From Flavobacterium praedii (lineage in GTDB: Bacteria; Bacteroidota; Bacteroidia; Flavobacteriales; Flavobacteriaceae): a stretch of 64,000 nt of DNA. The translations under genes were made by a program, and so were the position numbers. Shown one piece after another: positions 10,614-56,135 of the stretch (the stretch's first letter is position 1; each line of letters starts with the position of its first letter). The notes under the pieces are model-generated. The model was not told where the DNA came from and did no database searches. It saw only the letters and a list, made by a program, of their open reading frames with translations. The DNA lies in contig NZ_CP113948.1 of NCBI RefSeq assembly GCF_026810365.1, forward strand, positions 3,937,501-4,001,500, in the 5' to 3' direction.

Positions 10614-10669
10614 TAGATTTTAGACTACAGATTTCAGGTTTTAGAATTTAGAGAATAGAATATTGAGAA
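10614..10669 (+). repeat. Heptameric array (TAGATTT/TAGAATT-like), 8 units
   Basis: Eight consecutive 7-bp units (TAGATTT, TAGACTA, CAGATTT, CAGGTTT, TAGAATT, TAGAGAA, TAGAATA, TTGAGAA) start directly after the wbpP stop codon. The period continues into AATGAAT and AGTGATA up to the likely ugd start at 10684, so the first few residues of a longer ugd frame would be repeat-derived. Confidence 0.85.
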
Positions 10670-12389: not shown

Positions 12390-13673
12390 TTGAATAAAGA
12401 CATAAAAATTGCAGTAATAGGTTTGGGATATGTTGGTTTGCCTTTGGCTCGATTGTTTGCTACCCAATTTTCGGTTGTAGGATTTGATATTAATGTATCG
12501 AGAGTTGTAGCTTTGCAATCAGGCACAGATAGTACTCTAGAGGTGGATGATGCAACATTGCAAAAGGTATTGGTTTCAAAACCAAGTAATGAAAAAGGTT
12601 TGTATTGTACCTCCCAAAAATCAGATATAGCCAACTGTACTTATTTTATTGTAACGGTTCCTACTCCGGTTGACAAAAACAACCGTCCTGATTTGACTCC
12701 TTTGTTTAAATCCAGTGAAACTGTTGGTTCCGTTTTGAAAAAAGGAGATATCGTTATTTACGAGTCTACCGTATATCCAGGAGTTACAGAAGAAGAATGT
12801 GTGCCTGTTTTAGAAAAAATATCCGGATTAAAATTCAACATCGATTTTTTTGCAGGCTATTCCCCAGAACGAATCAATCCAGGGGATAAAGAACATACTG
12901 TTGAAAAAATATTAAAAATAACCTCAGGATCCACTCCTGAAATTGGTCATAAAGTAAATGAATTGTATCAATCGGTTATTACTGCAGGAACGCATTTAGC
13001 CCCCTCTATAAAAGTGGCTGAAGCTGCAAAAGTCATCGAGAATTCCCAACGCGATATCAATATTGCTTTTGTAAACGAATTGGCCAAAATTTTTAATCTT
13101 TTGGATATTGATACTGCTGCTGTACTTAAAGCCGCGGGAACCAAATGGAATTTTTTGCCTTTCAAACCGGGCTTGGTTGGCGGGCATTGTATAGGGGTTG
13201 ATCCCTATTATTTGGCGCAAAAAGCGCAAGAGAAAGGCTATCATCCTGAAATTATATTGGCCGGTCGTCGATTGAATGACAGTATGGGCGATTATGTAGC
13301 CTCACAAGTAGTGAAGTTAATGATTAAAAAAGGGGTGACTATCAATGGTGCCCGCTTGTTAATGCTCGGTATTACTTTTAAAGAAAATTGTCCTGATGTT
13401 CGCAATACCAAAATTGTAGATGTGATCCAGGCACTGGAAGATTACGGAATCGAAGTGACTATTTTTGATCCTTGGGCTAATCCTTCTGAGGTGCAACACG
13501 AATATGGTTTAACAATGGTGAATGAGGTGCCAAAAGCTACTTATGATGCGATAGTTCTTGGTGTGGCGCATACTGAATTTTTGAATTTGGATATTAATTC
13601 GTTAAGAGAAACATGCAGTATATTGTATGATGTTAAGGGCGTTTTGACGGACGGGGTTGATGGGAAATTGTGA
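12390..13673 (+). CDS. wbpO: Nucleotide-sugar dehydrogenase, WbpO/TviB type (UDP-GalNAc/GlcNAc dehydrogenase)
   Basis: A 427-residue UDP-sugar 6-dehydrogenase of the WbpO/TviB class, which oxidises UDP-GalNAc or UDP-GlcNAc to the uronate. Visible are the NAD motif IAVIGLGYVGLPLARLF, FIVTVPTPVDKNNRPDL, YESTVYPGVTEEECVPVLE, GYSPERINPGDKEH and GLVGGHCIGVDPYYL with catalytic Cys267. The only plausible start is TTG 12390 (encoding MNKDIKIAVIG); there is no in-frame ATG nearby. With the WbpP-like epimerase it predicts UDP-GalNAcA. A heptameric array begins at the base before the stop codon, so the TGA is part of the first repeat unit. Confidence 0.88.
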   Translation: MNKDIKIAVIGLGYVGLPLARLFATQFSVVGFDINVSRVVALQSGTDSTLEVDDATLQKVLVSKPSNEKGLYCTSQKSDIANCTYFIVTVPTPVDKNNRPDLTPLFKSSETVGSVLKKGDIVIYESTVYPGVTEEECVPVLEKISGLKFNIDFFAGYSPERINPGDKEHTVEKILKITSGSTPEIGHKVNELYQSVITAGTHLAPSIKVAEAAKVIENSQRDINIAFVNELAKIFNLLDIDTAAVLKAAGTKWNFLPFKPGLVGGHCIGVDPYYLAQKAQEKGYHPEIILAGRRLNDSMGDYVASQVVKLMIKKGVTINGARLLMLGITFKENCPDVRNTKIVDVIQALEDYGIEVTIFDPWANPSEVQHEYGLTMVNEVPKATYDAIVLGVAHTEFLNLDINSLRETCSILYDVKGVLTDGVDGKL

Positions 13674-13781
13674 GTAGTGAATTGTGAGTAGTGAATGGTG
13701 AGGAGTGAATAGTTAGAGGTTAGAAGTGAGTGGTGAGAAGTGAAAAGTGAGTTGTGGGTTGTGGGTTGTTGGTTGTGAGTT
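13670..13781 (+). repeat. Heptameric array (GTGANNN), 16 units
   Basis: Sixteen in-phase 7-bp units (GTGAGTA, GTGAATT, GTGAATG, GTTAGAA, GTGAGAA, GTGGGTT and similar) run without phase break. The first unit overlaps the TGA stop of the preceding gene. Weaker heptameric sequence of another type (AATAGAA) continues to about 13830, directly in front of the next gene. Confidence 0.93.
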
Positions 13782-13820
13782 TTTAGAGAAGAGAATTAAG
13801 GGAATAGAAAATAGAAATAA

Positions 13821-17060: not shown

Positions 17061-17307
17061 CAAATTCTTAGAAATAGTGAACCATTATGGGACTCACAGT
17101 GGCGAAGCCGTGGAGTGATTTTATCGGTTTACTGTTTTGAGTTGTGGGTTTTGAGTTAAGAGTTTTGCTACACTGCAGTATTTTAACTTGGCACAGCCTA
17201 AACGGCTTTACTTGAAAAAATTACTTGAATAACAATATTAGATAAAAGTAACCTCTAGGGTTTCATCGTTTTTTACTAGTTATAAGTATAGAATTTTATA
17301 ACTATGT

Positions 17308-19929: not shown

Positions 19930-20002
19930 ATCAGTTATGGGTTATCTGTTGTGGGTTATGAGTTGTCAGTTTAAAAGTTTAAAAGTTGTTTAATGAGTTT
20001 AG

Positions 20003-20128
20003 ACAACAGAAAACAGATAAAAGAGAACAGACAACAGAGAACAGACAACAGAGAACAGAAAACTTACAACAGATAACCAATAAAGGTTAACCAAAAACCG
20101 ATTACAGAAAACATAAAACCGACAACGG
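20003..20128 (+). repeat. Heptameric array (ACAACAG/AGAACAG), 18 units
   Basis: Eighteen in-phase 7-bp units (ACAACAG, AAAACAG, AGAACAG, ATAACCA, AAAACCG, ACAACGG and similar) end four bases before the ATG of the Wzz-like gene. Looser heptameric sequence (CAGTTAT, GGGTTAT) precedes it from about 19933. Confidence 0.92.
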
Positions 20129-23071: not shown

Positions 23072-23083
23072 CCCCGAAGGGGG
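23062..23083. repeat. GC-rich palindrome overlapping a stop codon
   Basis: CCCCC (23064-23068) and CCCC (23072-23075) face GGGGG (23079-23083) across TAA and GAA. The TAA is the stop codon of the reductase gene. Similar CCCCTAACCCC..GGGG elements are, from memory, common in Bacteroidota intergenic DNA. Confidence 0.6.
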
Positions 23084-23117
23084 AACTTCGCTAGGTGGGT
23101 AAGGGTTGAAAGGAGTA

Positions 23118-23265
23118 GTGAATGGTGAATACTGAATAGAATGCAGAATAAAGAAAGTTTTAAGCAAAACAAAAAATAGAAACATAAAGATTTAGAGTTG
23201 AAAATTTATCCCTATACCTTTGGGACAAAAGTTTAAACCTAAAATCTAAAATCTAAAATCTATAT
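23118..23265 (+). repeat. Heptameric sequence upstream of rfbF, two short arrays
   Basis: GTGAATG, GTGAATA, CTGAATA, GAATGCA, GAATAAA (23118-23152) form one short array. GTTTAAA, CCTAAAA, TCTAAAA, TCTAAAA, TCTATAT (23231-23265) form another that ends exactly at the rfbF ATG. Confidence 0.75.
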
Positions 23266-40328: not shown

Positions 40329-40348
40329 TGTATTAGAAAAATGTTACA

Positions 40349-40393
40349 CAGGAAATTACCGCTAATAATACAATGGTAATTTCCTGTTTTTAT
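40349..40393 (+). terminator. Strong terminator ending the Wzx/Wzy operon
   Basis: ACAGGAAATTACC (40349-40361) pairs perfectly with GGTAATTTCCTGT (40376-40388), a 13-bp stem followed by TTTTTAT. It separates the epimerase gene from the next glycosyltransferase. Confidence 0.88.
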
Positions 40394-40450
40394 AAATTTA
40401 AAATTATTTAGAGTATTCCTTTTAAATATATTTAGTAATCAAAAAGTATT

Positions 40451-41674: not shown

Positions 41675-41693
41675 ATATTGCATTTAAATTATT

Positions 41694-42587: not shown

Positions 42588-42607
42588 AAGACAATAAAAA
42601 TAAAATA

Positions 42608-43696: not shown

Positions 43697-43698
43697 AA

Positions 43699-43796
43699 GT
43701 GAATAGTGAATAGTGAATAGTGAATAGTGAATAGTGAATGGTGAATGGTGAATGGTGAATGGTGAATGGTGAATGGTGAGTTGTGAATGGTGAGTT
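43699..43796 (+). repeat. Heptameric array (GTGAATA/GTGAATG), 14 units
   Basis: Fourteen perfectly phased units: five GTGAATA, six GTGAATG, then GTGAGTT, GTGAATG, GTGAGTT. The array begins two bases after the manC stop codon. The homogeneity of the first eleven units suggests recent expansion. Confidence 0.96.
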
Positions 43797-44398
43797 GCGT
43801 TTTTAAAAGTTTAAAAGGTTGCACTATTTAATGTTGTTAAAAAATAGGTATTTGAGAAGTGGAGGTCTTTCCATGCAAAAGCTGAATTACGGGATTTGAA
43901 TTAGCTTTTGGTGATGTTCCCTTTGGCAGTATAACAAGATTTTGGCTCTCGACTGTACTTCGACTTCGCTCCGTACAAATTTTTCTGGATCAATACCATT
44001 AAGATTAAGGATTTCTTGCTAGAATTATTCTAAATGCAGCTCTCGCAAAGGCGCAGAGACGCAAAGAAAACGGTTTTAGACTTTGCACCTTAATGGCTCT
44101 GCCAGAAAAATCAAAGTTTAACTTAATGAGTTTGCGCTCGAGGAGACAGGTGAGTTGTGAGATGAGAGAAGTGAGTTCTCGGTTGTCAGTTTAAAGGTTT
44201 AAAACTGTTTAATGGCTTCAGAGTTTAAAGTTGTTTAAGTTCCAGTATGGGATTGAATTATTTATATATTGAAGGTATTTCAATTCAAATGTTGTATTGC
44301 GGGATTTGATTATTGGAGCGGAGTTCGTTGTGAGGACGCTTCCTTTTTCAGTAGGACAAGATTCTGGAATGTTATATTTTATTAAATAAAAAACATGT
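43797..44398. other. Non-coding remainder of a 702-bp gap with degenerate repeats
   Basis: No gene is seen. Two related copies of a 65-78-bp sequence are present (43881-43945 and 44291-44368), sharing GGGATTTGA and CAGTA..ACAAGATT.TGG. Between them are a CTCTCGACTGT element (about 43949), CGCAAAG-type heptamers (44044-44066) and six GTGANNN-type heptamers (44150-44191) followed by GTTTAAA-type sequence. It looks like a graveyard of repeats rather than a leader. Confidence 0.55.
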
Positions 44399-44848
44399 AT
44401 GTCAGAAAATAATAAGATCCCTAAATTAATCAAAGGCGGAATTCATACCGACCAAAGAGGGCAGATTTCCTATGTTAACGATATGAAATTTGATGCTATT
44501 GAGCGGTTTTATATCATTAGTAATTCGGCTGAGAATCCTTTGCGGGCTTGGCAGGGGCATAAAATAGACAATAAATATTTTTATTGCATTCAAGGTACTG
44601 TAAGAGTGCATTATGTAAAAATAGACCACTGGGAATCGCCTTCGAAAGATTTGAAAGTTGAAAGTATTGTTCTTAGTGCTGATCAAAGCAATGTTCTTCA
44701 TATTCCGGAAGGTTATGCCAATGCCATTGAATCGCTGGAAGTGGGGTCTAAATTGATTTCGTTTTCTACTTTACCGCTAGACCGAACTTCGGAAGATGAT
44801 GTGCGGTTTGATAGTGATATGTGGGAGTTAGTGAATAGTGAGAAGTGA
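44399..44848 (+). CDS. Cupin-type sugar epimerase-like protein (RmlC/FdtA-related)
   Basis: A 149-residue small cupin. IKGGIHTDQRGQISYVNDM, FYIISNSAENPLRAWQGHKIDNKYFYCIQGTVRVHY and VLHIPEGYANAIESL resemble the WxcM/FdtA and dTDP-4-dehydrorhamnose 3,5-epimerase-related families, where a barrel His (in WQGHK) is important. The exact sugar is unknown; it could be a 3,4-ketoisomerase or epimerase for a dTDP-sugar, as it lies just before rfbC. The last five codons (VNSEK) and the TGA stop are formed by heptameric repeat units, so the C-terminus has been rewritten by the array. Confidence 0.75.
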   Translation: MSENNKIPKLIKGGIHTDQRGQISYVNDMKFDAIERFYIISNSAENPLRAWQGHKIDNKYFYCIQGTVRVHYVKIDHWESPSKDLKVESIVLSADQSNVLHIPEGYANAIESLEVGSKLISFSTLPLDRTSEDDVRFDSDMWELVNSEK

Positions 44849-44885
44849 GTGGTGAATAGTGAATAGTGAGTGTGAATAGTTAGAA
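44831..44885 (+). repeat. Heptameric array invading the 3' end of a gene
   Basis: GTGAATA, GTGAGAA, GTGAGTG, GTGAATA, GTGAATA, GTGAGTG, TGAATA (six bases, a phase slip) and GTTAGAA. The first three units lie inside the coding frame of the cupin gene and supply its last residues and stop. Confidence 0.92.
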
Positions 44886-44915
44886 GTTACTTTTAAAAAG
44901 ATAAAAAATTATAAT

Positions 44916-45464
44916 ATGAACATAGAGCAAACTTATATTAAGGATTTAGTTATACTGACTCCTGATGTATTTGAGGACGAAAGGGGTTATTTTTTTGAGG
45001 CCTACAACAAAAATAAATTGAGTGGGTTGGGAATTGATATTGAATTTGTGCAGGACAATCAATCCTTTTCACAAAGGGGAACTTTGCGGGGTTTGCATTA
45101 CCAGAATCCGCCTTTTGCTCAAACTAAATTAGTTCGAGTATTACAGGGAGAGATAATGGATGTTGCTGTCGATCTAAGGAAAGACTCCCCTACTTACGGG
45201 AAACATTTTGGAATCAAATTAACAGCCGAAAACAAAAAACAATTGTTAGTTCCACAAGGTTTTGCCCATGGATTTTCGGTATTGAGTGAAACCGCTGTAG
45301 TGCTTTATAAGTGCGATCAGTTTTATAATAAAGCCAGCGAAGGGGGTATCCGTTTTGATGATACAACTTTAAACATCGATTGGGGAATGGATTTAAAAGA
45401 TGCTATTGTATCCGGAAAGGATTTGGTTTTACCTGATTTTGCAGGGTGTAATAGTGAGTTTTAA
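44916..45464 (+). CDS. rfbC: dTDP-4-dehydrorhamnose 3,5-epimerase
   Basis: Third step of dTDP-L-rhamnose synthesis. The 182-residue cupin has the classic features: DLVILTPDVFEDERGYFFEAYN, FVQDNQSFSQRGTLRGLHYQNPPFAQTKLVRV with catalytic His61, DVAVDLRKDSPTYGKHFG and VPQGFAHGFSVLSETAVVLYKC. It matches rhamnose RfbC far better than the homologue at 25131. Its final codons (CNSEF) look repeat-derived, and a long heptameric array follows directly after the stop. Confidence 0.95.
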   Translation: MNIEQTYIKDLVILTPDVFEDERGYFFEAYNKNKLSGLGIDIEFVQDNQSFSQRGTLRGLHYQNPPFAQTKLVRVLQGEIMDVAVDLRKDSPTYGKHFGIKLTAENKKQLLVPQGFAHGFSVLSETAVVLYKCDQFYNKASEGGIRFDDTTLNIDWGMDLKDAIVSGKDLVLPDFAGCNSEF

Positions 45465-45660
45465 GTTGGTAGTGAATAGTTAGTAGTTAGTCGTGAATAG
45501 TTAGTCGTGAATAGTTAGTCGTGAATAGTTAGTCGTGAATAGATAGTCGTGAATAGATAGTCGTGAATAGTTAGTGGTGAATAGTTAGTAGTTAGTCGTG
45601 AATAGTTAGTAGTTAGTCGTGAATAGTTAGTGGTGAATAATGAAGAGTGAATATTGACTG
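45465..45660 (+). repeat. Heptameric array (GTGAATA/GTTAGTC alternating), 28 units
   Basis: Twenty-eight units in unbroken phase, largely alternating GTGAATA with GTTAGTC, GATAGTC, GTTAGTA or GTTAGTG, giving a 14-bp superperiod in places. It starts on the base after the rfbC stop codon and fills most of the gap to rfbD. Confidence 0.96.
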
Positions 45661-45695
45661 TCTATTTGCTAAAATAAATTTTCTGTATATAAATT

Positions 45696-46559
45696 ATGAA
45701 AAAAATATTAATTACCGGTGCCAATGGGCAATTGGGTTCTGAATTGAATGTTCTGTCAAAAATATATAACCAATTTGAATGGGTTTTTACGGATCGAGAA
45801 GAGTTGGATTTGTGTAATTTGGAGAATTTAGCTGCCGAATTAACAAATATAAAACCGGACTATATCGTTAATTGCGCAGCTCACACTGCTGTGGATCGAG
45901 CCGAATCAGAATATGAATTGTCTGATGTTTTGAATCATAAATCCGTTGCTGTACTGGCAAATTGGAGTAAAAACAACACTTGTAAATTGATTCATATTTC
46001 CACCGATTATGTTTTTGACGGTACTGCGGCAACTGCTCTAAGTGAGTCAGCTCCCACAGGTCCGATTAATGTGTATGGAGTGACCAAATTGGCTGGGGAA
46101 AAAGCGTGCATGGAGGAAAATCCATCAGCTATTATCATCAGAACTTCTTGGGTATATTCTAGTTTTGGAGCCAATTTTGTAAAAACAATGTCAAGATTAA
46201 TGCAAGAAAGAGATTCTTTGAATGTTGTCAATGATCAAATAGGAAGCCCAACTTATGCGGCCGATTTGGCACAAGCTATAATGACAATTATTACGCATCC
46301 AAATTGGGAAGCTGGCATTTATCATTTTTCGAATGAGGGAGCAATTAGTTGGTATGAATTTGCTTTGGCCATTCAGGAAATTGGTGGTTTTGATTGTGCT
46401 GTCAGCGGTATTCCATCTTCGGCTTATCCAACACCAGCAAAACGCCCTCAATATTCATTATTGGACAAAACCAAAATTAAAGCTACTTTTGGGGTAGTTG
46501 TTCCGGGATATAGGGAGAGTTTGGTGAAGTGTATGGAGCAACTAATTAGTACGAATTAA
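45696..46559 (+). CDS. rfbD: dTDP-4-dehydrorhamnose reductase
   Basis: Final step of dTDP-L-rhamnose synthesis, using NAD(P)H. The 287-residue SDR protein has [72 protein letters not shown] (YxxxK), IRTSWVYSSFGANFVKTM and NDQIGSPTYAADLA, all diagnostic. It is preceded by the 28-unit heptamer array and followed by a GxxExxY gene and rfbA. Confidence 0.95.
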   Translation: MKKILITGANGQLGSELNVLSKIYNQFEWVFTDREELDLCNLENLAAELTNIKPDYIVNCAAHTAVDRAESEYELSDVLNHKSVAVLANWSKNNTCKLIHISTDYVFDGTAATALSESAPTGPINVYGVTKLAGEKACMEENPSAIIIRTSWVYSSFGANFVKTMSRLMQERDSLNVVNDQIGSPTYAADLAQAIMTIITHPNWEAGIYHFSNEGAISWYEFALAIQEIGGFDCAVSGIPSSAYPTPAKRPQYSLLDKTKIKATFGVVVPGYRESLVKCMEQLISTN

Positions 46560-46583
46560 AAACGAATTTAACGAATTCTACTA

Positions 46584-46973
46584 ATGGATAAAATACTTTT
46601 TAAGGAAGAGAGTTTTAAAATTATTGGTGCTTGTATGAAAGTACATCGTTCATTAGGAGTAGGATTCTTGGAGGCGGTTTATGAAGAAGCATTAGAGAAA
46701 GAATTTTTGATTCAAAATATTCCTTTTAAAAGACAGCTGAAATTGGAATTATATTATGAAAATGTGAAATTGAGTAAGTATTATAGAGCAGATTTTGTTT
46801 GCTATGATGGAATTGTTTTAGAAATTAAAGCTGTAGTCCATATTCCAGATATATTCTACGCGCAGTTGAGAAATTATTTAAAATGTACCAATATGGAATT
46901 GAGTATGCTAATTAATTTTGGTATGCCATCATTGAATTATAAAAGAATAATTAATTTGAAAAATTCGGATTAA
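46584..46973 (+). CDS. GxxExxY protein
   Basis: A 129-residue protein of the GxxExxY family, named for the motif seen here as [17 protein letters not shown]. The later part, [22 protein letters not shown], has the D..E.K pattern of PD-(D/E)XK nuclease-like folds, and [25 protein letters not shown] is the conserved C-terminus. Function is unknown; such genes are often scattered as single insertions in Bacteroidota. Here it sits between rfbD and rfbA, 24 and 20 bases away, so it is co-transcribed with rhamnose genes without an obvious metabolic link. Confidence 0.9.
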
Positions 46974-46993
46974 TTCGTAAAATTAGAAGAACT

Positions 46994-47863
46994 ATGAAAG
47001 GAATAATACTTGCTGGAGGATCGGGTACTCGTTTGCATCCGTTAACGCTTGCGATGAGTAAGCAAATGATGCCTGTTTATGATAAACCAATGATTTATTA
47101 TCCATTGTCGACATTGATGATGGCTGGTATCAATGAAATATTGATTATTTCGACACCGCATGATTTGCCTAATTTCAAAAAATTATTAGGAGATGGATCG
47201 GCAATAGGATGTAAATTCAGTTATGCGGAACAAGCAATTCCAAATGGTTTGGCGCAAGCATTTGTGATTGGAGAAGACTTCATTGGTTCGGATTCTGTTG
47301 CTTTGGTATTAGGAGATAATATTTTCTTTGGAGCCAATATGCATGAATTATTGCAATCGAATACCAATCCTGAAGGGGGAGTTGTTTTTGCTTACCATGT
47401 TTCGGATCCAGAGCGATATGGTGTTGTAGAATTTGATAAAAATCTGAAAGCGCTATCTATCGAGGAAAAACCTTTAGTCCCAAAATCAAATTATGCGGTT
47501 CCAGGGTTGTATTTTTATGACAATTCAGTAGTGGAAATAGCAAAAAATATTCAACCTAGTGCCAGAGGAGAATATGAAATTACCGATGTGAATAAAGTGT
47601 ATTTGGAACAAGGTAAATTGAAAGTTGGAATTTTGAGCCGTGGTACCGCTTGGTTGGATACCGGAACTTTTAACAGTTTGATGCAAGCAGGACAATTTGT
47701 ACAGGTTTTGGAAGAACGTCAAGGATTGAAAGTAGGTTGTATTGAAGAAATTGCTTGGAGGCAAGGTTTTATAACTGAGGATCAACTAAGAGAATTGGCC
47801 GAGCCTTTGAAAAAGTCGGGGTATGGAGAGTATTTATTGGGGCTTTTGAAATATAAAATTTAG
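46994..47863 (+). CDS. rfbA: Glucose-1-phosphate thymidylyltransferase
   Basis: First step of dTDP-L-rhamnose synthesis. The 289-residue enzyme shows [20 protein letters not shown] with the phosphate-binding loop, [39 protein letters not shown] with the metal-binding Asp, [18 protein letters not shown], and [18 protein letters not shown]. It completes the set with rfbC and rfbD upstream and rfbB at 15274. Confidence 0.97.
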
Positions 47864-48151
47864 TTCAGGGAATAGCAGCAGACAGAATTTAGATTGCAGT
47901 ATTTAATTCTATAAATAACAGTATTTGTTAAAATAAATTTTCAAACCATATTAGTCATGTAAGTTTTTAGGCTGAATAATGCTAAGTAAAAACTAAGTCC
48001 ATTTAAGTAAATACAAAACTTTTTTTACTTTAACTAATATTTGGAAAGCTAGTTTTCTTTTTCTTTTATGACTTATATGTTTCAAAATTAATTGCTTTTT
48101 AAAATAGAATTTAGCGGAATGCAGAAAACGGATAACCGATAACCTCCTATA
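47864..48151 (+). other. 288-bp gap before the WbpL-like gene
   Basis: AT-rich with no gene. The last 35 bases show heptameric units (ATGCAGA, AAACGGA, TAACCGA, TAACCTC) ending next to the ATG at 48152. No confident promoter core was found. Confidence 0.4.
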
Positions 48152-49099
48152 ATGAATTACATTACCTTACTTTTTTTATTTATTGGTGTTGAATTGCTTT
48201 ATTTCAAGATTGCCGATTTTTATAATATTATTGACAAACCCAATAGCCGTTCTTCGCATACATCAATAACATTGCGCGGGGGAGGAGTTATTTTTCCTAT
48301 AGCGATTTTAACAGCTTGCATCCTGGGATATGTTTCTTGGACATTAACAGTTGCGGTACTTTTGGTGGCAATTGTTAGCTTTATTGACGATATAAAACCT
48401 TTATCTCAATTGCCCAGATTTGCTTCTCATGCTATAGCTATTGGCTTGGTTTTTTATGATTTGAATTTGTTTACTCAAGCACTTTGGCTTTTGCCTATTG
48501 TTTTTATCTTATTAATCGGATGGGTGAATGCGTTTAATTTTATGGATGGCATCAACGGGATAACTGTAATGTATGCCTTTGTAGTTATTGTTAGTTTTTC
48601 TTTTTTAGAAATAAATAAAGAGAGTCTTCCGTTATTATGGACTATGGGATTGTCTTGTTGTGCTTTTGGAATTTTTAATGTTCGGAAAAAAGCCAAAACA
48701 TTTGCCGGTGATGTTGGAAGTATTAGTATGGCTTTGTTCTTGGGCTTTTTTATGATAAAAACGATTTTGGTTTCGGGTCAAGTTGGTTATCTCCTTTTTT
48801 TATCCGTGTATGGAATTGATGCCGTTATTACCATTTTTACACGAATAAAAAAGAAAGAAAATATTTTGGAACCCCACCGTTCTCATTTGTACCAATATTT
48901 GGCGAATGAATTAGGCTATTCCCATATTCTAGTTTCTTTTATGTATGCCTTTATCCAGCTACTGATTAATGTACTGTTGATTTTTTTAGATTCAAAAGGC
49001 AGTTTGTCTCTACCTATTGTGATTTGCTTATTGTTGTTTCAAATTACAATTTATGTATGGATTAGAAGCCGAGTGGTTCAGAAAATTAATTTGACATAG
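48152..49099 (+). CDS. Polytopic phosphoglycosyl transferase, WecA/WbpL (MraY) family
   Basis: A 315-residue integral membrane enzyme with about ten helices that transfers a sugar-1-phosphate from a UDP-sugar to undecaprenyl phosphate, starting a glycan. KPNSRSSHTSITLRGGGVIFP, VSFIDDIKPLSQLPRF with the Asp-Asp motif, NAFNFMDGINGITVMY and FAGDVGSISMALFLGFF are family signatures, with LEPHRSHLYQYLANELGYSH in the last cytoplasmic loop. In Pseudomonas the homologue WbpL works with WbpM and WbpV, both of which have counterparts here. Eleven bases separate it from a second type of initiating enzyme. Confidence 0.9.
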   Translation: MNYITLLFLFIGVELLYFKIADFYNIIDKPNSRSSHTSITLRGGGVIFPIAILTACILGYVSWTLTVAVLLVAIVSFIDDIKPLSQLPRFASHAIAIGLVFYDLNLFTQALWLLPIVFILLIGWVNAFNFMDGINGITVMYAFVVIVSFSFLEINKESLPLLWTMGLSCCAFGIFNVRKKAKTFAGDVGSISMALFLGFFMIKTILVSGQVGYLLFLSVYGIDAVITIFTRIKKKENILEPHRSHLYQYLANELGYSHILVSFMYAFIQLLINVLLIFLDSKGSLSLPIVICLLLFQITIYVWIRSRVVQKINLT

Positions 49100-49110
49100 A
49101 TTTACTGATT

Positions 49111-49743
49111 GTGGGACAAAAAGATCATTTTCTTACTTCTAGATTATATTTTAAGTCAATGTTAAAGCGTGTTTTTGATATTGGATTTTCTATTCTAATG
49201 CTTTTTGTGTTTTCGTGGTTGCTTTTGACTGCTTGGTTCTTGGCTGTTATCGATACTCAAACAAATGGGATTTTTACACATGATCGTATTGGCCAATTTG
49301 GGAGAAAGTTTAAAATTTACAAATTGAGAACAATACAAATTAATTCAGATGGTGAAGGGAAAGGTATAAAAATTTCAAAAATTGGTCAACTACTTCGAAA
49401 TTACAAATTAGATGAGTTGCCTCAGTTTTTTAATGTTTTGAAAGGAGAAATGAGTGTTGTAGGTCCAAGGCCTGATATTGAGGGCTATTACGATTTATTA
49501 GAAGGCGAGAATCGGAAAATTTTGGATTTAAAACCAGGATTAACCAGCTTGGCTTCTTTAAAATATTACAATGAAGACAAACTTTTGGATATTCAAGAAA
49601 ATCCTTTGCGATATAATGACGAAGTATTATTTCCGGATAAATTAAAACTGAATTTGGCTTATTACCATCACCAGAGTTTGTATGAAGATTTAAAGATTAT
49701 TGTCGCAACTGGAAGATTTGTAGTTGTAAAAATTATAAGTTAA
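49111..49743 (+). CDS. Monotopic sugar transferase (PglC/WcaJ-type initiating enzyme)
   Basis: A 210-residue bacterial sugar transferase (PF02397 type) that attaches the first sugar-phosphate to undecaprenyl phosphate. An N-terminal membrane helix (VFDIGFSILMLFVFSWLLLTAWF) is followed by DRIGQFGRKFKIYKLRTIQ, the catalytic Asp-Glu in YKLDELPQFFNVLKGEMSVVGPRP and KPGLTSLASLKY. GTG 49111 gives the amphipathic N-terminus usual for the family; ATG 49159 would start at MLKRVFD and is also possible. It directly follows the WbpL-like gene, giving two initiating enzymes side by side. Confidence 0.9.
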   Translation: MGQKDHFLTSRLYFKSMLKRVFDIGFSILMLFVFSWLLLTAWFLAVIDTQTNGIFTHDRIGQFGRKFKIYKLRTIQINSDGEGKGIKISKIGQLLRNYKLDELPQFFNVLKGEMSVVGPRPDIEGYYDLLEGENRKILDLKPGLTSLASLKYYNEDKLLDIQENPLRYNDEVLFPDKLKLNLAYYHHQSLYEDLKIIVATGRFVVVKIIS

Positions 49744-49911
49744 ATCTTAATTTTGTAATTCTTTATTTTTTTATTGTTCAAAATAGGTCTAAAATTGATT
49801 TAATTAAGGCGTTGCATTTTTGTTAAATGGTTGTAGATAGTCATTTTATGTGTTTCGTCAGAAATGTAATATTCTATAGTGTAATTTTACTTCTAGATGT
49901 ATTTTAATTTG

Positions 49912-49919
49912 TAATTTTG
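49912..49919 (+). promoter_or_regulatory. Probable -7 promoter element of the WbpM-like gene (TAATTTTG)
   Basis: A perfect TAnnTTTG match lies 44 bases before the ATG at 49964, in a 220-bp AT-rich gap with no gene. It implies a leader of roughly 40 nt. Confidence 0.45.
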
Positions 49920-49963
49920 TATTCTTCCTTTGTTTCTTTTAAGAAAATAAAAAACGCTAAAAA

Positions 49964-51913
49964 ATGAATGAAAATTCCCTTTATTCTGGATTTTTGTCAA
50001 GAGCCAATTTGAGATTAAGCATTCGTAATTTGAGTTACCTGCCAAGGTGGATTATCGTTATGATTGATTTTTCGGTATTGATAATTACCTTTTTCTTTAC
50101 CCTCCTTATTTTTAGAGGAACAGGATTAAAATACATTAATACAACTCATGATGTCTTTTTTATTACTTGCTTTTTTGGAACCAATATTTTCTTTTTTTGG
50201 TTGTTTAGAACCTATTCGGGTATAATACGACATTCTTCCTATATAGATGCAGTGAAACTTTTGTTTTCGCAAATGTCGGTATTGGTTGTTTTTTTGGTGT
50301 TTAACTTTGCTTATGAGTTGCTAAATGATGAACGAATATTCTTGACTACAGCGCTTTTTATCAATGTGGTGTTGTCGTTTTGTGGTTTGTTTTTGTATCG
50401 TGTCGTGGTCAAGCAAACTTTCGAAATGTATTTGTCTGAGAAAAGCGCTACCAAATTAATACGAACTATAATTTACGGAACAGACGCCAACGCGATTTCG
50501 GTTGCGAATGCTTTGAAATTTGAAACGCCAACTCGTTTTAAGATTGTGGGTTTTGTGGATCGAAACAACCAAAATGCTTCAAAGCGTATGTTGGATTTAC
50601 CCATTTTGGTTCAAAAGAAAAAACTACCTTCATTAATGCGTTCAGTAGGAGCTGAAGCAGTTATTATGGCCGATAAAAGTTTAGGGAAAGAAGAGCAATT
50701 GGTGATAGTAGATCAATGTTTGGAATTTAATTATAGAGTTTATACAGTGCCTTTGATTACGGACTGGGAAAATCAGAAAGAAATTTCACAAAAGGTAAAA
50801 AATATACAGATTGAAGATTTATTAGAGCGAAAACCAATTGTTTTAGACAATAAATCCATTTCGAAGCAACTCAAAGATAAAACGGTTTTAATTTCGGGAG
50901 CAGCAGGTTCTATTGGAAGTGAAATTGTAAGACAGGTTTTAACTTTTAATCCCAAAAGAGTAATTATATTAGATCAGGCTGAAACTCCTTTGCATCATTT
51001 GAGTCTTGAATTGGAAAAATTGCATTCGAAATCAAAGATTCATCATGTTATTGCCGATGTTCGAAATAAGGAGGCGATGAACAGGGTTTTTAAAACCTTT
51101 AAACCACAAGTTGTTTATCATGCTGCCGCTTATAAACACGTGCCATTGATGGAAGAAAATCCTTCACAAGCGATTTTGACCAATATAGAAGGAACCAAAA
51201 ATCTAGCTGATTTATCCTGTGAATATGAAGTGATTAAGTTCGTTATGGTTTCTACTGATAAAGCGGTTAATCCGAGTAATGTTATGGGAGCCAGCAAACG
51301 AATTGCTGAAAAATACGTGCAATCTTTGCAGATTAAAAATATAAAAGAGAACAAACTCAATGCTACAAAATTCATTACCACTCGTTTTGGAAATGTTTTG
51401 GGATCAAATGGCTCCGTAGTTCCTTTGTTTACGAAACAAATTGCAAATGGAGGTCCAGTAACGATTACTCATCCTGATATTATTCGTTATTTTATGACCA
51501 TCCCAGAAGCTTGTCAACTGGTATTGGAAGCTGGTGCCATGGGGAATGGAGGAGAGATTTATATTTTTGATATGGGGAAACCAGTTAAAATTTTGGATTT
51601 GGCCAAAAAAATGATCAAACTGGCCGGATTTATTCCTGATAGAGATATAAAAATTGATATTGTGGGATTGCGACCCGGAGAAAAATTATATGAAGAGTTG
51701 TTAAACGATACGGCAAAAACAATTCCTACTTATCATGAAAAAATAATGATTGCTGAAGAAATTCAAGATGAGTTTGAGAATTTGCATGTTGACATAAATG
51801 AACTGATAGGAATTGCTAATTACTTTGACAATGATGATATTGTTGCTAAAATGAAAGTTATCGTTCCAGAGTTTAAAAGCATGAATTCCACTTTTGAAAT
51901 TTTAGATAAATAA
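49964..51913 (+). CDS. WbpM-like UDP-GlcNAc 4,6-dehydratase (membrane-anchored)
   Basis: A 649-residue nucleotide-sugar dehydratase of the WbpM/CapD/FlaA1 class. About four membrane helices lie in residues 25-145, followed by a CoA-binding-like domain (about 160-285) and the catalytic SDR domain (about 300-600: TVLISGAAGSIGSEIVRQ, HAAAYKHVPLMEENPSQAI, STDKAVNPSNVMGASKR). The SDR tyrosine is replaced by methionine (MGASK), as in WbpM. It forms UDP-4-keto-6-deoxy-GlcNAc, feeding the WbpV/QuiC-like reductase at 41694. A perfect terminator stem follows. Confidence 0.92.
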   Translation: MNENSLYSGFLSRANLRLSIRNLSYLPRWIIVMIDFSVLIITFFFTLLIFRGTGLKYINTTHDVFFITCFFGTNIFFFWLFRTYSGIIRHSSYIDAVKLLFSQMSVLVVFLVFNFAYELLNDERIFLTTALFINVVLSFCGLFLYRVVVKQTFEMYLSEKSATKLIRTIIYGTDANAISVANALKFETPTRFKIVGFVDRNNQNASKRMLDLPILVQKKKLPSLMRSVGAEAVIMADKSLGKEEQLVIVDQCLEFNYRVYTVPLITDWENQKEISQKVKNIQIEDLLERKPIVLDNKSISKQLKDKTVLISGAAGSIGSEIVRQVLTFNPKRVIILDQAETPLHHLSLELEKLHSKSKIHHVIADVRNKEAMNRVFKTFKPQVVYHAAAYKHVPLMEENPSQAILTNIEGTKNLADLSCEYEVIKFVMVSTDKAVNPSNVMGASKRIAEKYVQSLQIKNIKENKLNATKFITTRFGNVLGSNGSVVPLFTKQIANGGPVTITHPDIIRYFMTIPEACQLVLEAGAMGNGGEIYIFDMGKPVKILDLAKKMIKLAGFIPDRDIKIDIVGLRPGEKLYEELLNDTAKTIPTYHEKIMIAEEIQDEFENLHVDINELIGIANYFDNDDIVAKMKVIVPEFKSMNSTFEILDK

Positions 51914-51934
51914 AATTTTAAAATTAAGATATAG

Positions 51935-51971
51935 AAAAGGTTTACAAGGGATGTCCTTGTAAACCTTTTTT
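51935..51971 (+). terminator. Strong terminator after the WbpM-like gene
   Basis: AAAAGGTTTACAAGG (51935-51949) pairs perfectly over 15 bp with CCTTGTAAACCTTTT (51955-51969), with a 5-nt loop and trailing T residues. It separates the WbpM-like gene from the ABC-exporter cluster. Confidence 0.92.
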
Positions 51972-52156
51972 GATTATGAAAGTTTTTTTGTCTGGTGGGA
52001 GGTTTTGAGTTTTGGGGTGTTAGTTGTTAAAGGTTTAATGATTCTTCACTAATTGGGAGGGTCTGAATAGTTAAAAAAAGCAAACACTATTCTTTAATGA
52101 TTACATTTGCGGTTTTATTTAAATCAGTGACAATTACCAATTTTAGTTCCAAAATA

Positions 52157-53026
52157 ATGAGCAGTAGTAATACCCCAAATACGGAATGGCTGTTTGAGAT
52201 AACGCCCAAGAATAAATTTTTCTCTTTGAATCTTAGAGAGGTTTGGCAATATCGCGATTTGCTTTTTCTTTTTGTAAAAAGAGATATTGTTACCGTATAC
52301 AAACAAACGGTTTTGGGGCCATTATGGTACTTGATACAGCCGTTGTTTACTTCGATTACCTTTACCATAATTTTCAATACCGTTGCCGGAATTAATACGG
52401 GAACTGTGCCTCCATTTTTATTTAATTTGGCCGGGATTACGGTTTGGAATTATTTCACAGCCTGTCTCAACGGGACTTCCGATACGTTTAGAAGTAATGC
52501 AAACATCTTTGGTAAAGTTTATTTTCCTCGAATTATAGTTCCAATTTCTATTGTAATTTCCAATTTGCTAAAATTTGGAATTCAGTGTGGCATCTTTATT
52601 GTTTTTTATCTTTTTTATTATTTTAAAGGAGCCGATATCAGTTTGAATGCTACGGTTGTGTTTTTCCCTTTATTAATTCTATTAATGGGAGTTCTAGGGT
52701 TAGGATTAGGCATGTTGATTTCGTCTTTGGTTACCAAATATAGGGACTTTAATTATTTGATAGGTTTTGGGGTACAATTGTTGATGTATCTCTCGGCAGT
52801 AATGTATCCTATGGCTTTATTACAGGAAAAAATGCCAAATTATAGTTGGTTAATTCAATATAATCCGTTGGCTTATATTATAGAAACAGCGCGCTATATG
52901 TTACTCAATGTAGGGCAAATCTCTATCTTGGGATTGGTATATACTTTTTTGGTAACGGTTGGTGTATTTTTTGTAGGATTGTTAATTTTTAATAAGACTG
53001 AGAAGAGTTTTATAGATACGGTGTAG
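52157..53026 (+). CDS. wzm: Polysaccharide ABC transporter permease (Wzm-like)
   Basis: A 289-residue ABC-2-type permease that, with Wzt, exports completed polysaccharide across the inner membrane. [33 protein letters not shown] is the typical N-terminal cytoplasmic segment and interface helix start, followed by six hydrophobic helices and the late motif [36 protein letters not shown] 52157 ([15 protein letters not shown]) fits the family; the in-frame ATG 52097 would add 20 residues of non-homologous sequence. Its ATPase partner gene lies 1.1 kb downstream, beyond two repeat arrays and a small gene. Confidence 0.92.
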
Positions 53027-53425
53027 GTGAATGGTGAGTGGTGAATAGTGTGTGGTGAGAAGTGAGTGGTGAGAAGTGAATGGTGAGTGGTGAGAAGTGA
53101 ATGGTGAATGGTGAATTGTGAATAGTGAGAAGTGAGTGGTGAGTGGTGAGAAGTGAATGGTGAGTGGTGAATGGTGAATGGTGAGAAGTGAATAGTTAGA
53201 AGTGAATGGTGAATAGTGAGTGGTGAGTGGTGAGAAGTGAGTGGTGAGAAGTGAATGGTGAATGGTGAGAAGTGAGAAGTGAGAAGTGAGAAGTGAGAAG
53301 TGAGAAGTGAGAAGTGAGAAGTGAGAAGTGAGAAGTGAGAAGTGAGTGGTGAGAAGTGAATAGTTAGAAGTTAGAAGTTAGAAGTTAGAAGTTAGAAGTG
53401 AATGGTGAGTAGTGGGAGGTGTATA
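53027..53425 (+). repeat. Heptameric array, 57 units, directly after the wzm stop
   Basis: Exactly 57 units of 7 bp with no phase break, starting on the base after the stop codon. Units are mainly GTGAGAA, GTGAATG, GTGAGTG and GTGAATA, with GTTAGAA. One stretch has 11 identical GTGAGAA units (53265-53341), and another five identical GTTAGAA units (53363-53397), as expected from recent slippage or unequal crossover. It fills nearly the whole 427-bp gap; no gene is present. Confidence 0.98.
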
Positions 53426-53453
53426 GAAAATTATTAAGGTTAAAATAACTTGA

Positions 53454-53801
53454 ATGGATCATAAAGAATTAGATGTTTGGAAAAAAAGTATGGACTTGGT
53501 TGAGTCAATTTATACTCTTACTCAGCGATTTCCAGATGTTGAAAAATATGGTTTAACGAGTCAAATGAGAAGGGCTGCGGTTTCGATTCCATCAAACATA
53601 GCTGAAGGTGCTGCTCGAAAAGGGAATAAAGAATTATTACAGTTTCTGTATATTGCTATTGGTTCGCTTTCTGAATTGGAGACGCAATATCTTATTGCAA
53701 TACGATTGACTTTTATAGAAAAAGAGGAGGTTTTGGAAAAACAAATGATTGAAGTGAAAAAGCTTTTATTAGGATTTAAGAATTATATAAGTAAAGTGTA
53801 G
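53454..53801 (+). CDS. Four-helix-bundle protein (23S rRNA intervening-sequence family)
   Basis: A 115-residue all-helical protein of the family first known from 23S rRNA intervening sequences. MDHKELDVWKKSMDLVESIYTL, FPDVEKYGLTSQMRRAAVSIPSNIAEGAARKGNKELLQFLYIA and SLSELETQYLIA are its signatures. Function is unknown, possibly nucleic-acid or protein binding. It is lodged between wzm and wzt and bordered on both sides by heptameric arrays, with the right array starting on the last base of its stop codon. This placement suggests an insertion unrelated to export. Confidence 0.92.
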   Translation: MDHKELDVWKKSMDLVESIYTLTQRFPDVEKYGLTSQMRRAAVSIPSNIAEGAARKGNKELLQFLYIAIGSLSELETQYLIAIRLTFIEKEEVLEKQMIEVKKLLLGFKNYISKV

Positions 53802-54010
53802 TTAGAAGAGAGTAGTTAGAAGTGAATAGTGAGAGGTGAATAGTGAGGGGTGAATAGTGAGGGGTGAATAGTGAGGGGTGAATAGTGAGGGGTGAATAGT
53901 GAGGGGTGAATAGCGAGAGGTGAATAGCGAGAGGTGAATAGTGAGAGGTGAATAGCGAGAGGTGAATAGTGAGAGGTGAATAGTGAGGGGTGAATAGTGA
54001 GAAGAGAGAA
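53801..54010 (+). repeat. Heptameric array with 14-bp superperiod, 30 units
   Basis: Thirty in-phase 7-bp units. From unit 4 on, GTGAATA alternates strictly with GTGAGGG, GTGAGAG or GCGAGAG, giving about 13 copies of a 14-bp unit. It begins on the last base of the stop codon of the four-helix gene. The rest of the gap to wzt (54011-54144) holds non-repetitive sequence and three inverted heptamers. Confidence 0.97.
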
Positions 54011-54088
54011 GTAATCGCGGCTCTTACGGAGTATTAATGAAACGAGAATTATATTGTATATAAAAAAAGAGTAAGGTGAAGCGTAATT

Positions 54089-54133
54089 GTGAATAGTATG
54101 AAGGCAATCTCTATTCACTATTCACTATTCACG
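54089..54133 (+). promoter_or_regulatory. Inverted heptamers and hairpin just upstream of wzt
   Basis: CTATTCACTATTCACTATTCAC (about 54111-54132) is the reverse complement of the GTGAATA repeats. A lone GTGAATAG at 54089-54096 can pair with the first CTATTCAC (54111-54118) around a 14-nt loop, and the upstream array can compete for the same pairing. The structure ends 12 bases before the wzt ATG. Confidence 0.6.
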
Positions 54134-54144
54134 GCTCACGAATT

Positions 54145-55401
54145 ATGAAAGATATTATATTAAAAGCTGAAAACATATCCAAACAATACCGCTTGGGTCA
54201 AGTAGGTACGGGAACTTTAAGCCATGACTTAAATCGTTGGTGGCATCAAGTACGTGGAAAGGAAAATCCCTACTTGAAAATTGGTGATACCAATGACCGC
54301 TCTACTAAGGGAACCAGTGAGTATGTTTGGGCTTTGCAGGACATTAATTTTGAAGTAGAGCGAGGTGAAGTTCTGGGAATCATTGGGAAAAATGGAGCAG
54401 GAAAATCTACCTTATTAAAAATATTATCTAAGGTGACTGCACCCACCACAGGAAGCATTAAATCTCGTGGGCGTATTGCCTCGCTGCTTGAAGTAGGTAC
54501 GGGTTTTAATCCGGAGTTGACTGGTAAAGAAAACATATACTTGAACGGAGCCATTCTCGGAATGACCAAAAAAGAAATTGCCTCCAAGCTTGACGAGATT
54601 GTTGAATTCTCCGGTTGCGAACGCTACATAGACACTCCCGTAAAGAGGTATAGTAGTGGTATGACCGTACGTTTGGCTTTTGCCGTGGCTGCTTTTCTAG
54701 AGCCTGAAATTTTGGTGATAGATGAGGTATTGGCCGTTGGCGATGCCGAGTTCCAGAAAAAAGCCATTGGCAAAATGCAGGATATATCGAAAGGGGAAGG
54801 GAGAACGGTTTTGTTTGTGAGTCATGATTTAAGTGCAATAAGCACTCTTGCTACAAGAACTATTGTTTTGAAAAATGGTAATATTTTTGCCATTGAAGAA
54901 ACTAATAAAGCAATATCAATTTATTCTTCGATGGAGCAAGATGATAAGGTTTTTGTTCAAAAGGAAGTTATTGGTAAACCTTCAGTAACTAAAGTAGAAG
55001 TAATCACTTCTGAAGGAGGAACATTACAAGCAAATGGAAAATCTTTAATGATTAATTTCGAGATATCAATGCCTAAGGAAAATTACGAAAATTTGTCTGT
55101 TTCATTTCAAATTTTTGATAGTTTAAATAAGGCTATTATATACAATTATATTTTTGATAAAGATATTCCTATATGTCGGAGAAAAGGGGTAAATAAAATA
55201 TGTTTTGAATTTTCAAATTTAAGATTATATAAAGGGAATTATTATATTAAAGTACATTTAGCTAATTCTAAAACAAGGATAAAGTATCAAGAATTTGATT
55301 GTTGTGGTTTTCAAGTTGAAATGATTGACAAGAGAGAGCCGGAATGGGGTTGGCAAAATAATGTTTGTCAATATATAGATGAAGGAAAATGGAATTATTA
55401 A
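54145..55401 (+). CDS. wzt: Polysaccharide ABC transporter ATPase with C-terminal extension (Wzt-like)
   Basis: A 418-residue ATPase partner of Wzm. The nucleotide-binding domain (about 1-245) shows Walker A GIIGKNGAGKSTLLKIL (about 78-94), the signature YSSGMTVRLAFA, Walker B ILVIDEVLAVGD and the switch FVSHDLSAIS. The C-terminal 150 residues (about 270-418) form a beta-rich domain (LMINFEISMP, LSVSFQIFDS, LYKGNYYIKVHLANS) like Wzt-C, which binds the modified non-reducing end of its own glycan. This implies an exported polymer with a terminal modification, and methyltransferase genes follow directly. Confidence 0.94.
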   Translation: MKDIILKAENISKQYRLGQVGTGTLSHDLNRWWHQVRGKENPYLKIGDTNDRSTKGTSEYVWALQDINFEVERGEVLGIIGKNGAGKSTLLKILSKVTAPTTGSIKSRGRIASLLEVGTGFNPELTGKENIYLNGAILGMTKKEIASKLDEIVEFSGCERYIDTPVKRYSSGMTVRLAFAVAAFLEPEILVIDEVLAVGDAEFQKKAIGKMQDISKGEGRTVLFVSHDLSAISTLATRTIVLKNGNIFAIEETNKAISIYSSMEQDDKVFVQKEVIGKPSVTKVEVITSEGGTLQANGKSLMINFEISMPKENYENLSVSFQIFDSLNKAIIYNYIFDKDIPICRRKGVNKICFEFSNLRLYKGNYYIKVHLANSKTRIKYQEFDCCGFQVEMIDKREPEWGWQNNVCQYIDEGKWNY

Positions 55402-55424
55402 GAAGTATGTAAATTATTACTTAA

Positions 55425-56135
55425 ATGATGGAAAAAAAACATATTGAAGATTGGTTTATAAATCTTAATTCAAATAAAATGCTTTTGTCATTTTATTTAA
55501 TTAGGAAATCATTACTTAATGCTGTTATCGAATTAAAACCAATTATACATGGGCGTGTTCTAGATTTAGCATGTGGAGTAATGCCATATAAAGATTTTTT
55601 AAATAATAGTAATATTGAAACTTATATTGGTGTTGATTTGGAATCAACAGAATATCATAATACTATTAAACCTGATTATTATTGGGATGGAAAGAAAATC
55701 CCATTGGATGATGCTTCAGTAAACTTCGTCATTGCAACCGAATTTTTAGAGCATTATTTTGATACAAAGCATATCCTTCAAGAAATTAATAGAGTACTGA
55801 AACCTGGGGGGACATTCTTTTTTACAGTGCCTAATGTATGGCCGCTTCATGAATCTCCTTTTGATTACCATAGATTTACACCAAATGCATTAGACGAACA
55901 TTTTAAAATGTCAAAATTTTCTTCATGGGAAATTAAACCACTAGGAGGATTTCATTATCATGTAGCTTTAACTTTAGCGTTATGGAATGATTTTCAATTG
56001 TCCAAAAAGTATAGAATAATAATTAAACCTTTTTTGTTTTTTTTTACTAATCTATTGATAAAGAAAGATAAAAGAAAATCCAATTTCAGTAATGGTGAAA
56101 TGTATTCTGGTCTATATGGTTTTGTAATTAAATAG
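55425..56135 (+). CDS. Class I SAM-dependent methyltransferase
   Basis: A 236-residue Rossmann-fold methyltransferase. GRVLDLACGVMPYKDFL is the SAM-binding motif I, TYIGVDLEST motif II, and ATEFLEHYFDTKHILQEINRVLKPGGTFFFTVPN the motif typical of UbiE/Methyltransf_11-like enzymes. It starts 23 bases after wzt. In Wzt-C systems a methyl (or phosphomethyl) group often caps the glycan and is recognised by the exporter, so this is a candidate capping enzyme; that role is inferred. Confidence 0.85.
   Translation: MMEKKHIEDWFINLNSNKMLLSFYLIRKSLLNAVIELKPIIHGRVLDLACGVMPYKDFLNNSNIETYIGVDLESTEYHNTIKPDYYWDGKKIPLDDASVNFVIATEFLEHYFDTKHILQEINRVLKPGGTFFFTVPNVWPLHESPFDYHRFTPNALDEHFKMSKFSSWEIKPLGGFHYHVALTLALWNDFQLSKKYRIIIKPFLFFFTNLLIKKDKRKSNFSNGEMYSGLYGFVIK

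Follow-up and report, generated by a model that had tools for sequence, protein, structure and literature searches.

The closest described system is the intervening sequence (IVS) in the 23S rRNA of Coxiella burnetii, which contains an open reading frame (ORF) of the S23p family, is bounded by a 28-bp terminal stem, is excised by RNase III and has been termed a selfish element (PMC4990558). Tandem GACAGAT heptamers are located just upstream of this ORF and their number varies between strains (PMC4990558). Intergenic TAACTGA heptamers have been found in Beggiatoaceae, cyanobacteria and five Bacteroidetes, and for those of Beggiatoaceae binding by a post-transcriptional regulator was proposed (MacGregor 2015, PMC4679880). 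Heptamers in Bacteroidetes are thus partly described, whereas the first-pass annotation of the locus presented here knew of no dedicated description for Flavobacteriia. The GGGAATC repeats of Xanthomonas and the GGGGA(T/C)T repeats of Nostoc are intergenic as well, often occur in convergent pairs and lie nearer to their 5' neighbour; they were treated as G-quadruplexes (PMC4692102). The terms "four helix" and "intervening" do not occur in the accessible text of that paper, nor do these terms, S23, IVS or 23S occur in the main text of PMC4679880. Among the titles and abstracts listed in searches of openly licensed papers, none ties heptamer arrays to free-standing IVP genes, that is, genes of the PF05635/TIGR02436 "23S rRNA intervening-sequence protein" or four helix bundle protein, which is weak evidence of absence. 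BrickBuilt, a MITE of Porphyromonas gingivalis, resembles the arrays described below in that tandem repeats are contained in an intergenic element ending in inverted repeats, but its unit has 23 nt, it forms one sequence family and its abstract has no IVP gene (PMC4596501). PF05635 itself resembles Avd of diversity-generating retroelements (PMC10053308).

The present arrays come from a 64,000-nucleotide stretch of the Flavobacterium praedii genome, here called the window, in which the two largest heptamer arrays bracket an IVP gene (Table 1). This gene was overlooked by the first-pass annotation and is the key to the explanation. The locus shares with the Coxiella IVS the ORF family and tandem heptamers near the ORF that vary in number. 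Terminal inverted repeats, also present in the Coxiella IVS, are found for IVP loci as groups, whereas the block of the window has a 3-unit inverted arm and direct near flanks. Unlike the Coxiella element, which lies within 23S rRNA, that of the window lies between protein genes and has arrays that are far longer and locus-private (cf. PMC4990558). The arrays have in common with TAACTGA repeats a 7-bp unit, an intergenic position and a strain-specific length (PMC4679880), and with the GGGAATC and GGGGA(T/C)T heptamers the intergenic position, the frequent convergent pairs and the location nearer the 5' neighbour (PMC4692102). As in-phase intergenic 7-bp tandem repeats, they are of the same kind as the STRR, TAACTGA and GGGAATC repeats, but their unit sequence differs. 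It is reasonably probable that the block at 53027-54144 is an IVS-like element, in which an IVP gene between short-tandem-repeat arms occupies the space from the stop codon of one operon gene to the start codon of the next; the large left arrays of the window look like overgrown arms.

Arrays of the window and of the F. praedii genome

Table 1. Features of the window discussed in the text, with positions counted from its first nucleotide
Feature	Position	Strand	Profile match
Upstream host gene, ABC-2 type permease	52097..53026	+	PF01061, 1e-17
Upstream G-rich arm, 57 in-phase heptamers	53027..53425	+	
IVP gene, 115-aa four-helix-bundle protein, core of the putative element	53454..53801	+	PF05635, 1.1e-37; TIGR02436, 4.1e-36
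Second G-rich heptamer array, about 28 units, right after the IVP stop codon	53802..54003	+	
C-rich arm in inverted orientation, CTATTCA x3, right ahead of the start codon of the downstream host gene	54108..54140	-	
Downstream host gene, ABC transporter ATP-binding protein	54145..55401	+	PF00005, 1.3e-23
Solo G-rich array at the end of a UDP-sugar dehydrogenase gene	13666..13784	+	
Solo array, unit AGACAAC, C-rich on the + strand	20001..20097	-	
Short solo array AAATCTA, ending 3 bp before an ORF start	23235..23262	-	
Solo G-rich array GTGAATA/GTGAATG, directly after a stop codon, without adjoining IVP gene	43698..43797	+	
Solo G-rich array overlapping the end of ORF 44399-44848	44829..44887	+	
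Solo G-rich array between rmlC- and rmlD-like genes	45464..45657	+	

The upstream arm starts on the base after the permease stop codon and, as had been claimed from the sequence, runs without any phase slip. Its units are GTGAGAA (20), GTGAATG (11), GTGAGTG (10), GTTAGAA (6) and others; 54 of the 57 begin with GTGA or GTTA, the remaining three with GTGT, GTGG and GTGT, and 20 stops occur in each forward frame. An all-frame stop barrier was rejected as the purpose of arrays in general, since the CAACAGA unit type has no stops (by inspection). The ORF that follows the arm scores 128.9 bits against PF05635 (cut-off 33.8) and 123.5 bits against TIGR02436 (cut-off 24) and thus belongs to both families, and in the array behind it 27 of 28 units are in phase. 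The CTATTCA unit of the inverted arm is the reverse complement of the TGAATAG/GTGAATA unit and could pair locally with GTGAATAG just upstream; the RNA fold of 54080-54144 has a z of -2.24, with 8 of 200 shuffles equally good. This 3-unit arm, about 300 bp beyond the IVP gene, is the sole inverted one of the block, and the repeats in the nearest flanks of the gene have direct rather than inverted orientation (complementarity 5, direct score 43).

Other identities of the block were rejected. A known structured RNA finds no support in positions 40000-56000, where Rfam gave no match at E<=1, and an rRNA IVS is ruled out by the location between ABC permease and ATPase genes, not in 23S rRNA, and by near flanks that are direct repeats. 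The IVP does not qualify by profile as the accessory protein Avd of diversity-generating retroelements (DGRs), as its weak matches to the bAvd (20.7 bits) and Avd (26.6 bits) profiles are far below the curated cut-offs of 40 and 80 bits; the distant Avd similarity is only a lead on how gene and arms move. An assembly artefact was judged unlikely because arrays occur at orthologous sites of other assemblies and the genome is a single contig.

Period-7 matching at a threshold of 13 found eight arrays, covering 818 bp of the window, while period 6 gave one, period 12 two and periods 4, 5 and 8-11 none; 7 is the only short period strongly enriched. The identical period-7 scan of 20 spaced 20-kb stretches of the genome found four arrays per 400 kb, and for periods 7 and 14 jointly there were 10 arrays in the 64-kb window versus 8 in 520 kb of sampled stretches, a contrast that is biased upward because the window was chosen for its arrays. 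Among the 14 arrays initially listed, the strong ones are those of Table 1 apart from 23235-23262 and the inverted 54108-54140, both of which had been missed; those at 3109, 10614, 15191, 16327, 17135, 23118 and 44150 are short or degenerate and do not reach the autocorrelation threshold, Tandem Repeats Finder at a low cut-off nevertheless listing 10642-10669 and 17134-17167. The description of the family as strictly 7-bp is accurate for the strong arrays of the window, but some arms at related loci have period 8. Two further repeats or genes lie in this region: a 12-bp tandem repeat of about four copies at 14938-14987, within ORF 13884-15197, and a NusG-family gene (PF02357) at 16467-16937 in the polysaccharide locus, adjoining degenerate heptamers.

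Arrays are also found elsewhere in the genome. In a search of the whole genome, a run of five GTGA units occurs outside the window only at 552 kb, where TauE and Crp-like genes flank it; a pattern of four AGTKARN units added places at 758 kb (at a ClpB-like AAA ATPase gene, which is followed by a YhcG nuclease gene), 991 kb (in a histidine operon with an IVP gene) and 1694 kb (in the gap between a molybdopterin-oxidoreductase-like and a rubredoxin-domain gene). In the histidine operon (G000:C1, about 990.7-992.8 kb; L257:3201-5302), the IVP gene and GTTAGA-type arrays are located between two histidine-biosynthesis genes, both PF00977. Arrays are therefore not confined to glycan loci, and a glycan-specific role is weakened; of the suggested link to the polysaccharide locus, what stands is a local enrichment relative to the sampled genome stretches, not a special or exclusive association. 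The matching locus of relatives has 14 arrays per 60 kb in G010, 4 per 60 kb in G171, 3 per 40 kb in G017 and 3 per 40 kb in G056, and the G010 orthologue of the UDP-sugar dehydrogenase gene also ends in an array. Another stretch of G017 (C15:10001-50000; L333, L334) has ten period-7 arrays in 40 kb, with CACAACC, CCCAAAA and CACGACT among its unit types.

A role in recombination, also suggested by the first-pass annotation, was not borne out. The array between rmlC and rmlD fills a 231-bp gap, whereas in G171 the matched stretches of the two orthologues are 3 bp apart without an array and the gene order is unchanged, so arrays can come and go without gene rearrangement. G056 has a short array after rmlC, and its rmlC and rmlD are about 1.4 kb apart.

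Flanks of IVP genes across genomes

IVP genes were found in 60 of 61 genomes of the genus, 61 of 80 of a phylum sample, 29 of 60 of a Xanthomonadaceae sample and 51 of 98 of a Cyanobacteriota sample. F. praedii has seven. For five of these the nearest scanned period-7 array is at most about 60 bp away, and four of the five have arrays on both sides at a 120-bp limit; the two without a scanned array (L033, L035) have strongly complementary flanks, with scores of 35 and 30. The array units differ between these genes and are of the GTGANNN, AATTNNN, GTTAGAG and GCTTTGA types. In each taxon set, namely the own genome, the genus, other Bacteroidota, Cyanobacteriota, Xanthomonadaceae and a mixture of other phyla, IVP genes as groups are flanked by arrays of period 7, less often 8, with a locus-private unit. 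These arrays are G-rich upstream and tend to the reverse complement downstream, and ordinary genes show little of either.

Flank autocorrelation had its peaks at lags 7, 14 and 21, which recurred in the named, Xanthomonadaceae and Cyanobacteriota sets; lags 8, 16 and 24 gave weaker peaks. The lag-7 z of IVP flanks was 15.2 for the own genome, genus and phylum sample with the window locus excluded, 20.3 for named Bacteroidota, 18.6 for other named loci, 9.1 for Xanthomonadaceae and 17.0 for Cyanobacteriota, against 1.2 for the flanks of 87 control genes; other gaps near IVP genes gave a weaker signal (z 5.5, 43 gaps). Per locus, the period-7 score exceeded the 95th percentile of the control in 51/77 IVP loci and 5/87 control genes, and scores at periods 5, 6, 9, 10 and 11 showed no clear rise in the 77 named loci.

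Complementarity was measured by local alignment of 130-140 nt upstream with the reverse complement of 130 nt downstream, the control being flank partners swapped in from other loci. The 64 loci of the own genome, genus and phylum scored 17.25 versus 10.42 for shuffled partners (maximum of 10000 shuffles, 11.8), with 37 of them at or above the 95th percentile of mismatched flank pairs; the genus loci among them (L038-L067) are not independent, because they are the best-scoring IVP of each of 30 genomes and sites are repeated, an ndpA-like one above all. The 77 named loci of many phyla scored 20.03 versus 9.72 (maximum of 5000 shuffles, 11.26): 58 reached at least the 95th and 38 at least the 99th percentile, 19 stayed below the 95th, and among the non-Bacteroidota 27/34 reached at least the 95th. 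The 29 Xanthomonadaceae loci, about a dozen of which are one common site by inspection, gave 17.17 versus 11.74 (maximum 15.24; 11/29 at or above the 95th percentile), and the 29 Cyanobacteriota loci 24.31 versus 10.73 (maximum 15.9; 19/29). The 87 control genes, ordinary co-directional genes of F. praedii, had a small excess of 11.87 versus 11.27, with 11 at or above the 95th percentile and one at or above the 99th. The recurring site of the Xanthomonadaceae falls within L359-L377, and the gene after it we take, from the start of its sequence, to be a biotin carboxylase gene.

The strand composition and the orientation of the genes were also distinctive. The upstream flank is rich in G and the downstream one in C; the former was more G-skewed than the latter in 34/37 and 42/44 loci with inverted repeats, in 28/29 Xanthomonadaceae and in 26/29 Cyanobacteriota loci, compared with 53/87 control genes. 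An IVP gene shared the strand of both neighbours in 52 of the 62 loci with both neighbours present (from a set of 65, 64 of which were used for complementarity), compared with 156/290 ordinary and 20/31 size-matched genes. In the named set, which consists of 80 of a larger number of loci (L186 is without an ORF; 78 were used for orientation and 77 for complementarity), co-orientation was found for 35/41 Bacteroidota and was weaker elsewhere, at 20/32 non-Bacteroidota. Moreover, in two Cyanobacteriota loci (L407, L408) the IVP gene is immediately followed by (TAACTGA)n, and GGGAATC-type arms flank IVP genes of Xanthomonadaceae, for example L361, L363 and L377; two published orphan heptamer families are thereby tied to IVP genes in the same lineages.

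Two operon gaps compared within the genus

The gap between permease and ATPase genes was compared between species in the best 30 of the 101 genus genomes searched. Among these 30, an IVP gene with arrays occurs in four (F. praedii, G171, G010 and G017), the gap is only 0-63 bp in 16, and ten have other contents, one of them with a scanned array. By inspection, each of the four with an IVP gene also has a short inverted block ahead of the start codon of the ATPase gene. The IVP of G171 is 95% identical to that of the window, and the scanned upstream array measures 373 nt in the window, 55 nt in G171 and 123 nt in G010. GTGA arrays of at least five units are present in 32/101 genus genomes, and starting from the first listed array per genome, an IVP gene was found within 1.5 kb of 1/29 loci, so most such arrays are solo. 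As in the window, the upstream stop codon is no more than 20 bp from the beginning of a G-rich array in 32/39 same-strand cases, and opposite-strand arrays lie within 12 bp of a start codon in 12/28, counts in which some arrays are included twice and ORF ends are mechanical.

The gap upstream of a gene presumed to be ndpA-like (P0001, a working label) was read in 60 genus genomes, 59 of which were readable (L105 consists of N). An IVP gene was present in 23 gaps, five of them without an intact ORF; 15 had a hairpin without an IVP gene, three a single arm (by inspection), and 18 were plain. The 15 hairpins comprise six inverted heptamer or octamer arrays (by inspection; L117, L236, L242, L243, L250 and L251, with scores of 16-21) and nine other palindromes, and the four of these that were folded as RNA all did better than shuffles (z -2.46 to -3.88). 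Mapped on the upstream-protein tree, the presence of the IVP gene requires 13 changes, at least nine of them forced by well supported branches. The decayed IVP genes are those of L110, L115, L228, L229 and L241; those of L110 and L228 have retained clearly complementary arms on either side (scores 24 and 20). A G/C-rich palindromic repeat (CCCCCTAGCCCCC / GGGGG; CTCTCC / GGAGAG) occurs near the ndpA-like gene of L113, at 23065-23090 of the window and in L100, L101 and L104, in the same kind of gap and sometimes as inverted pairs, and may be another operon-gap filler.

Seventeen of the 18 intact IVPs at this site form one clade, L226 being a second lineage, and no recent jumping to new sites was seen, the IVPs of the ndpA-like site being mostly one clade. 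Subtypes A and B were named after viewing the IVP tree, which has few columns and unsettled bootstrap. All seven subtype A genes have CTAAG-type arms on both sides, and in nine of ten subtype B genes both arms are of the CAAAG type, the tenth (L234) having two CTAAG-type arms; subtype and arm unit type match in 16/17 genomes, and the two arms of a locus match each other in 17/17. A further, GTTTAAA-like arm type is found in L226, L228 and L241, one of which has the second IVP lineage. For the 15 loci in which both flanking genes were available, the A/B split is rejected by the flanking proteins (log-likelihood 106 worse, AU p 1.4e-6), and the host clades tested are in turn rejected by the IVP data. 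The IVP gene and both arms have thus mostly been exchanged together within this gap, since the match of subtype and arms, set against the tree of the neighbouring genes, indicates that they mostly behave as one unit. In L234, where a subtype B gene has arms of the other type, both arms seem to have been replaced together; arms are therefore replaceable without the gene. Own arms of the 23 IVP loci scored 21.0 versus 15.0 for mismatched ones (maximum of 10000 shuffles, 19.1), but, since the members of a subtype have their arms in common, only 3/23 exceeded the 95th percentile of mismatched pairs.

Explanations of the arrays and their meaning

If the block is an IVS-like element, its arms would pair in the transcript to give a long stem cleavable by RNase III, by analogy with the 23S rRNA IVS. 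Such a cut would free the insert and spare the neighbouring genes, as for IVP-bearing 23S rRNA intervening sequences, and insertion between operon genes would therefore cost little. Slippage may lengthen or shorten the arms by 7 bp at a time (57 units here, about 8 in G171), their complementarity may be maintained by copying between arms, and gene and arms may spread as one unit. Solo arrays of the window could then be arms left after gene loss, non-autonomous copies or independent slippage products. More tentatively, IVP genes with heptamer arms could form one widespread operon-dwelling class, of which the rRNA IVS would be the 23S special case and the orphan heptamers of Xanthomonas, cyanobacteria, Bacteroidota and perhaps Beggiatoa the arms or gene-less derivatives; the four-helix protein would act on its own stem and help gene and arms to copy or home together.

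A different order of events is conceivable, in which inverted heptamer arrays arise or persist alone in operon gaps and IVP genes insert into the hairpin loops. Intervening sequences of rRNA sit in loops of 23S rRNA helices. The six inverted arrays without an IVP gene at the ndpA-like site, including the four that were folded and did better than shuffles, agree with this order, as do the second IVP lineage of L226 at the same site, the uncoupling of arm type from gene subtype in L234 and the far greater number of solo arrays than of IVP genes. Arm unit type nevertheless follows IVP subtype in all but one of 17 ndpA-site genomes, and more than half of the permease-ATPase gaps among the best 30 of 101 are without an IVP gene, very short and free of any scanned array; that hairpins came before the genes is rather unlikely. 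It is improbable that neutral polymerase slippage alone makes the 7-bp repeats, with IVP genes as tolerated bystanders: slippage, repeated as a hypothesis for heptamers in PMC4692102, would suit the very unequal array lengths among relatives and the mostly solo GTGA arrays, but it leaves unexplained why arrays lie at IVP flanks and far less often at the 87 control genes, as well as the complementarity and polarity within loci.

The positions of arrays close to upstream stop codons, or to start codons on the opposite strand, would fit binding sites of a post-transcriptional regulator of the neighbouring genes, of the kind envisaged for TAACTGA; yet unit sequences that vary by locus are unlike a binding motif and the association with IVP genes is not predicted, which makes such a role very improbable. 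Still harder to credit are recombination junctions that shuffle polysaccharide genes, the reading first given to these arrays: the arrays are dense in the window locus and in the matching G010 locus, but they adjoin non-glycan genes too, and the rmlC-rmlD array is absent from G171 with no change in gene order.

To our knowledge, IVP genes have no established function, although they are common, and the heptamer arrays described independently in several phyla came with no cause. The same layout in several bacterial phyla seems to link repeat families that were described separately. If IVP genes and arrays are one system, both puzzles become testable, namely the reason for a period of 7 and the identity of whatever cuts, copies or binds the arms. 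A caution also follows for genome annotation, as intergenic repeats in glycan loci need not indicate phase variation. If the explanation is true, the arrays would be a marker for a little-noticed class of elements that insert between operon genes without destroying them.
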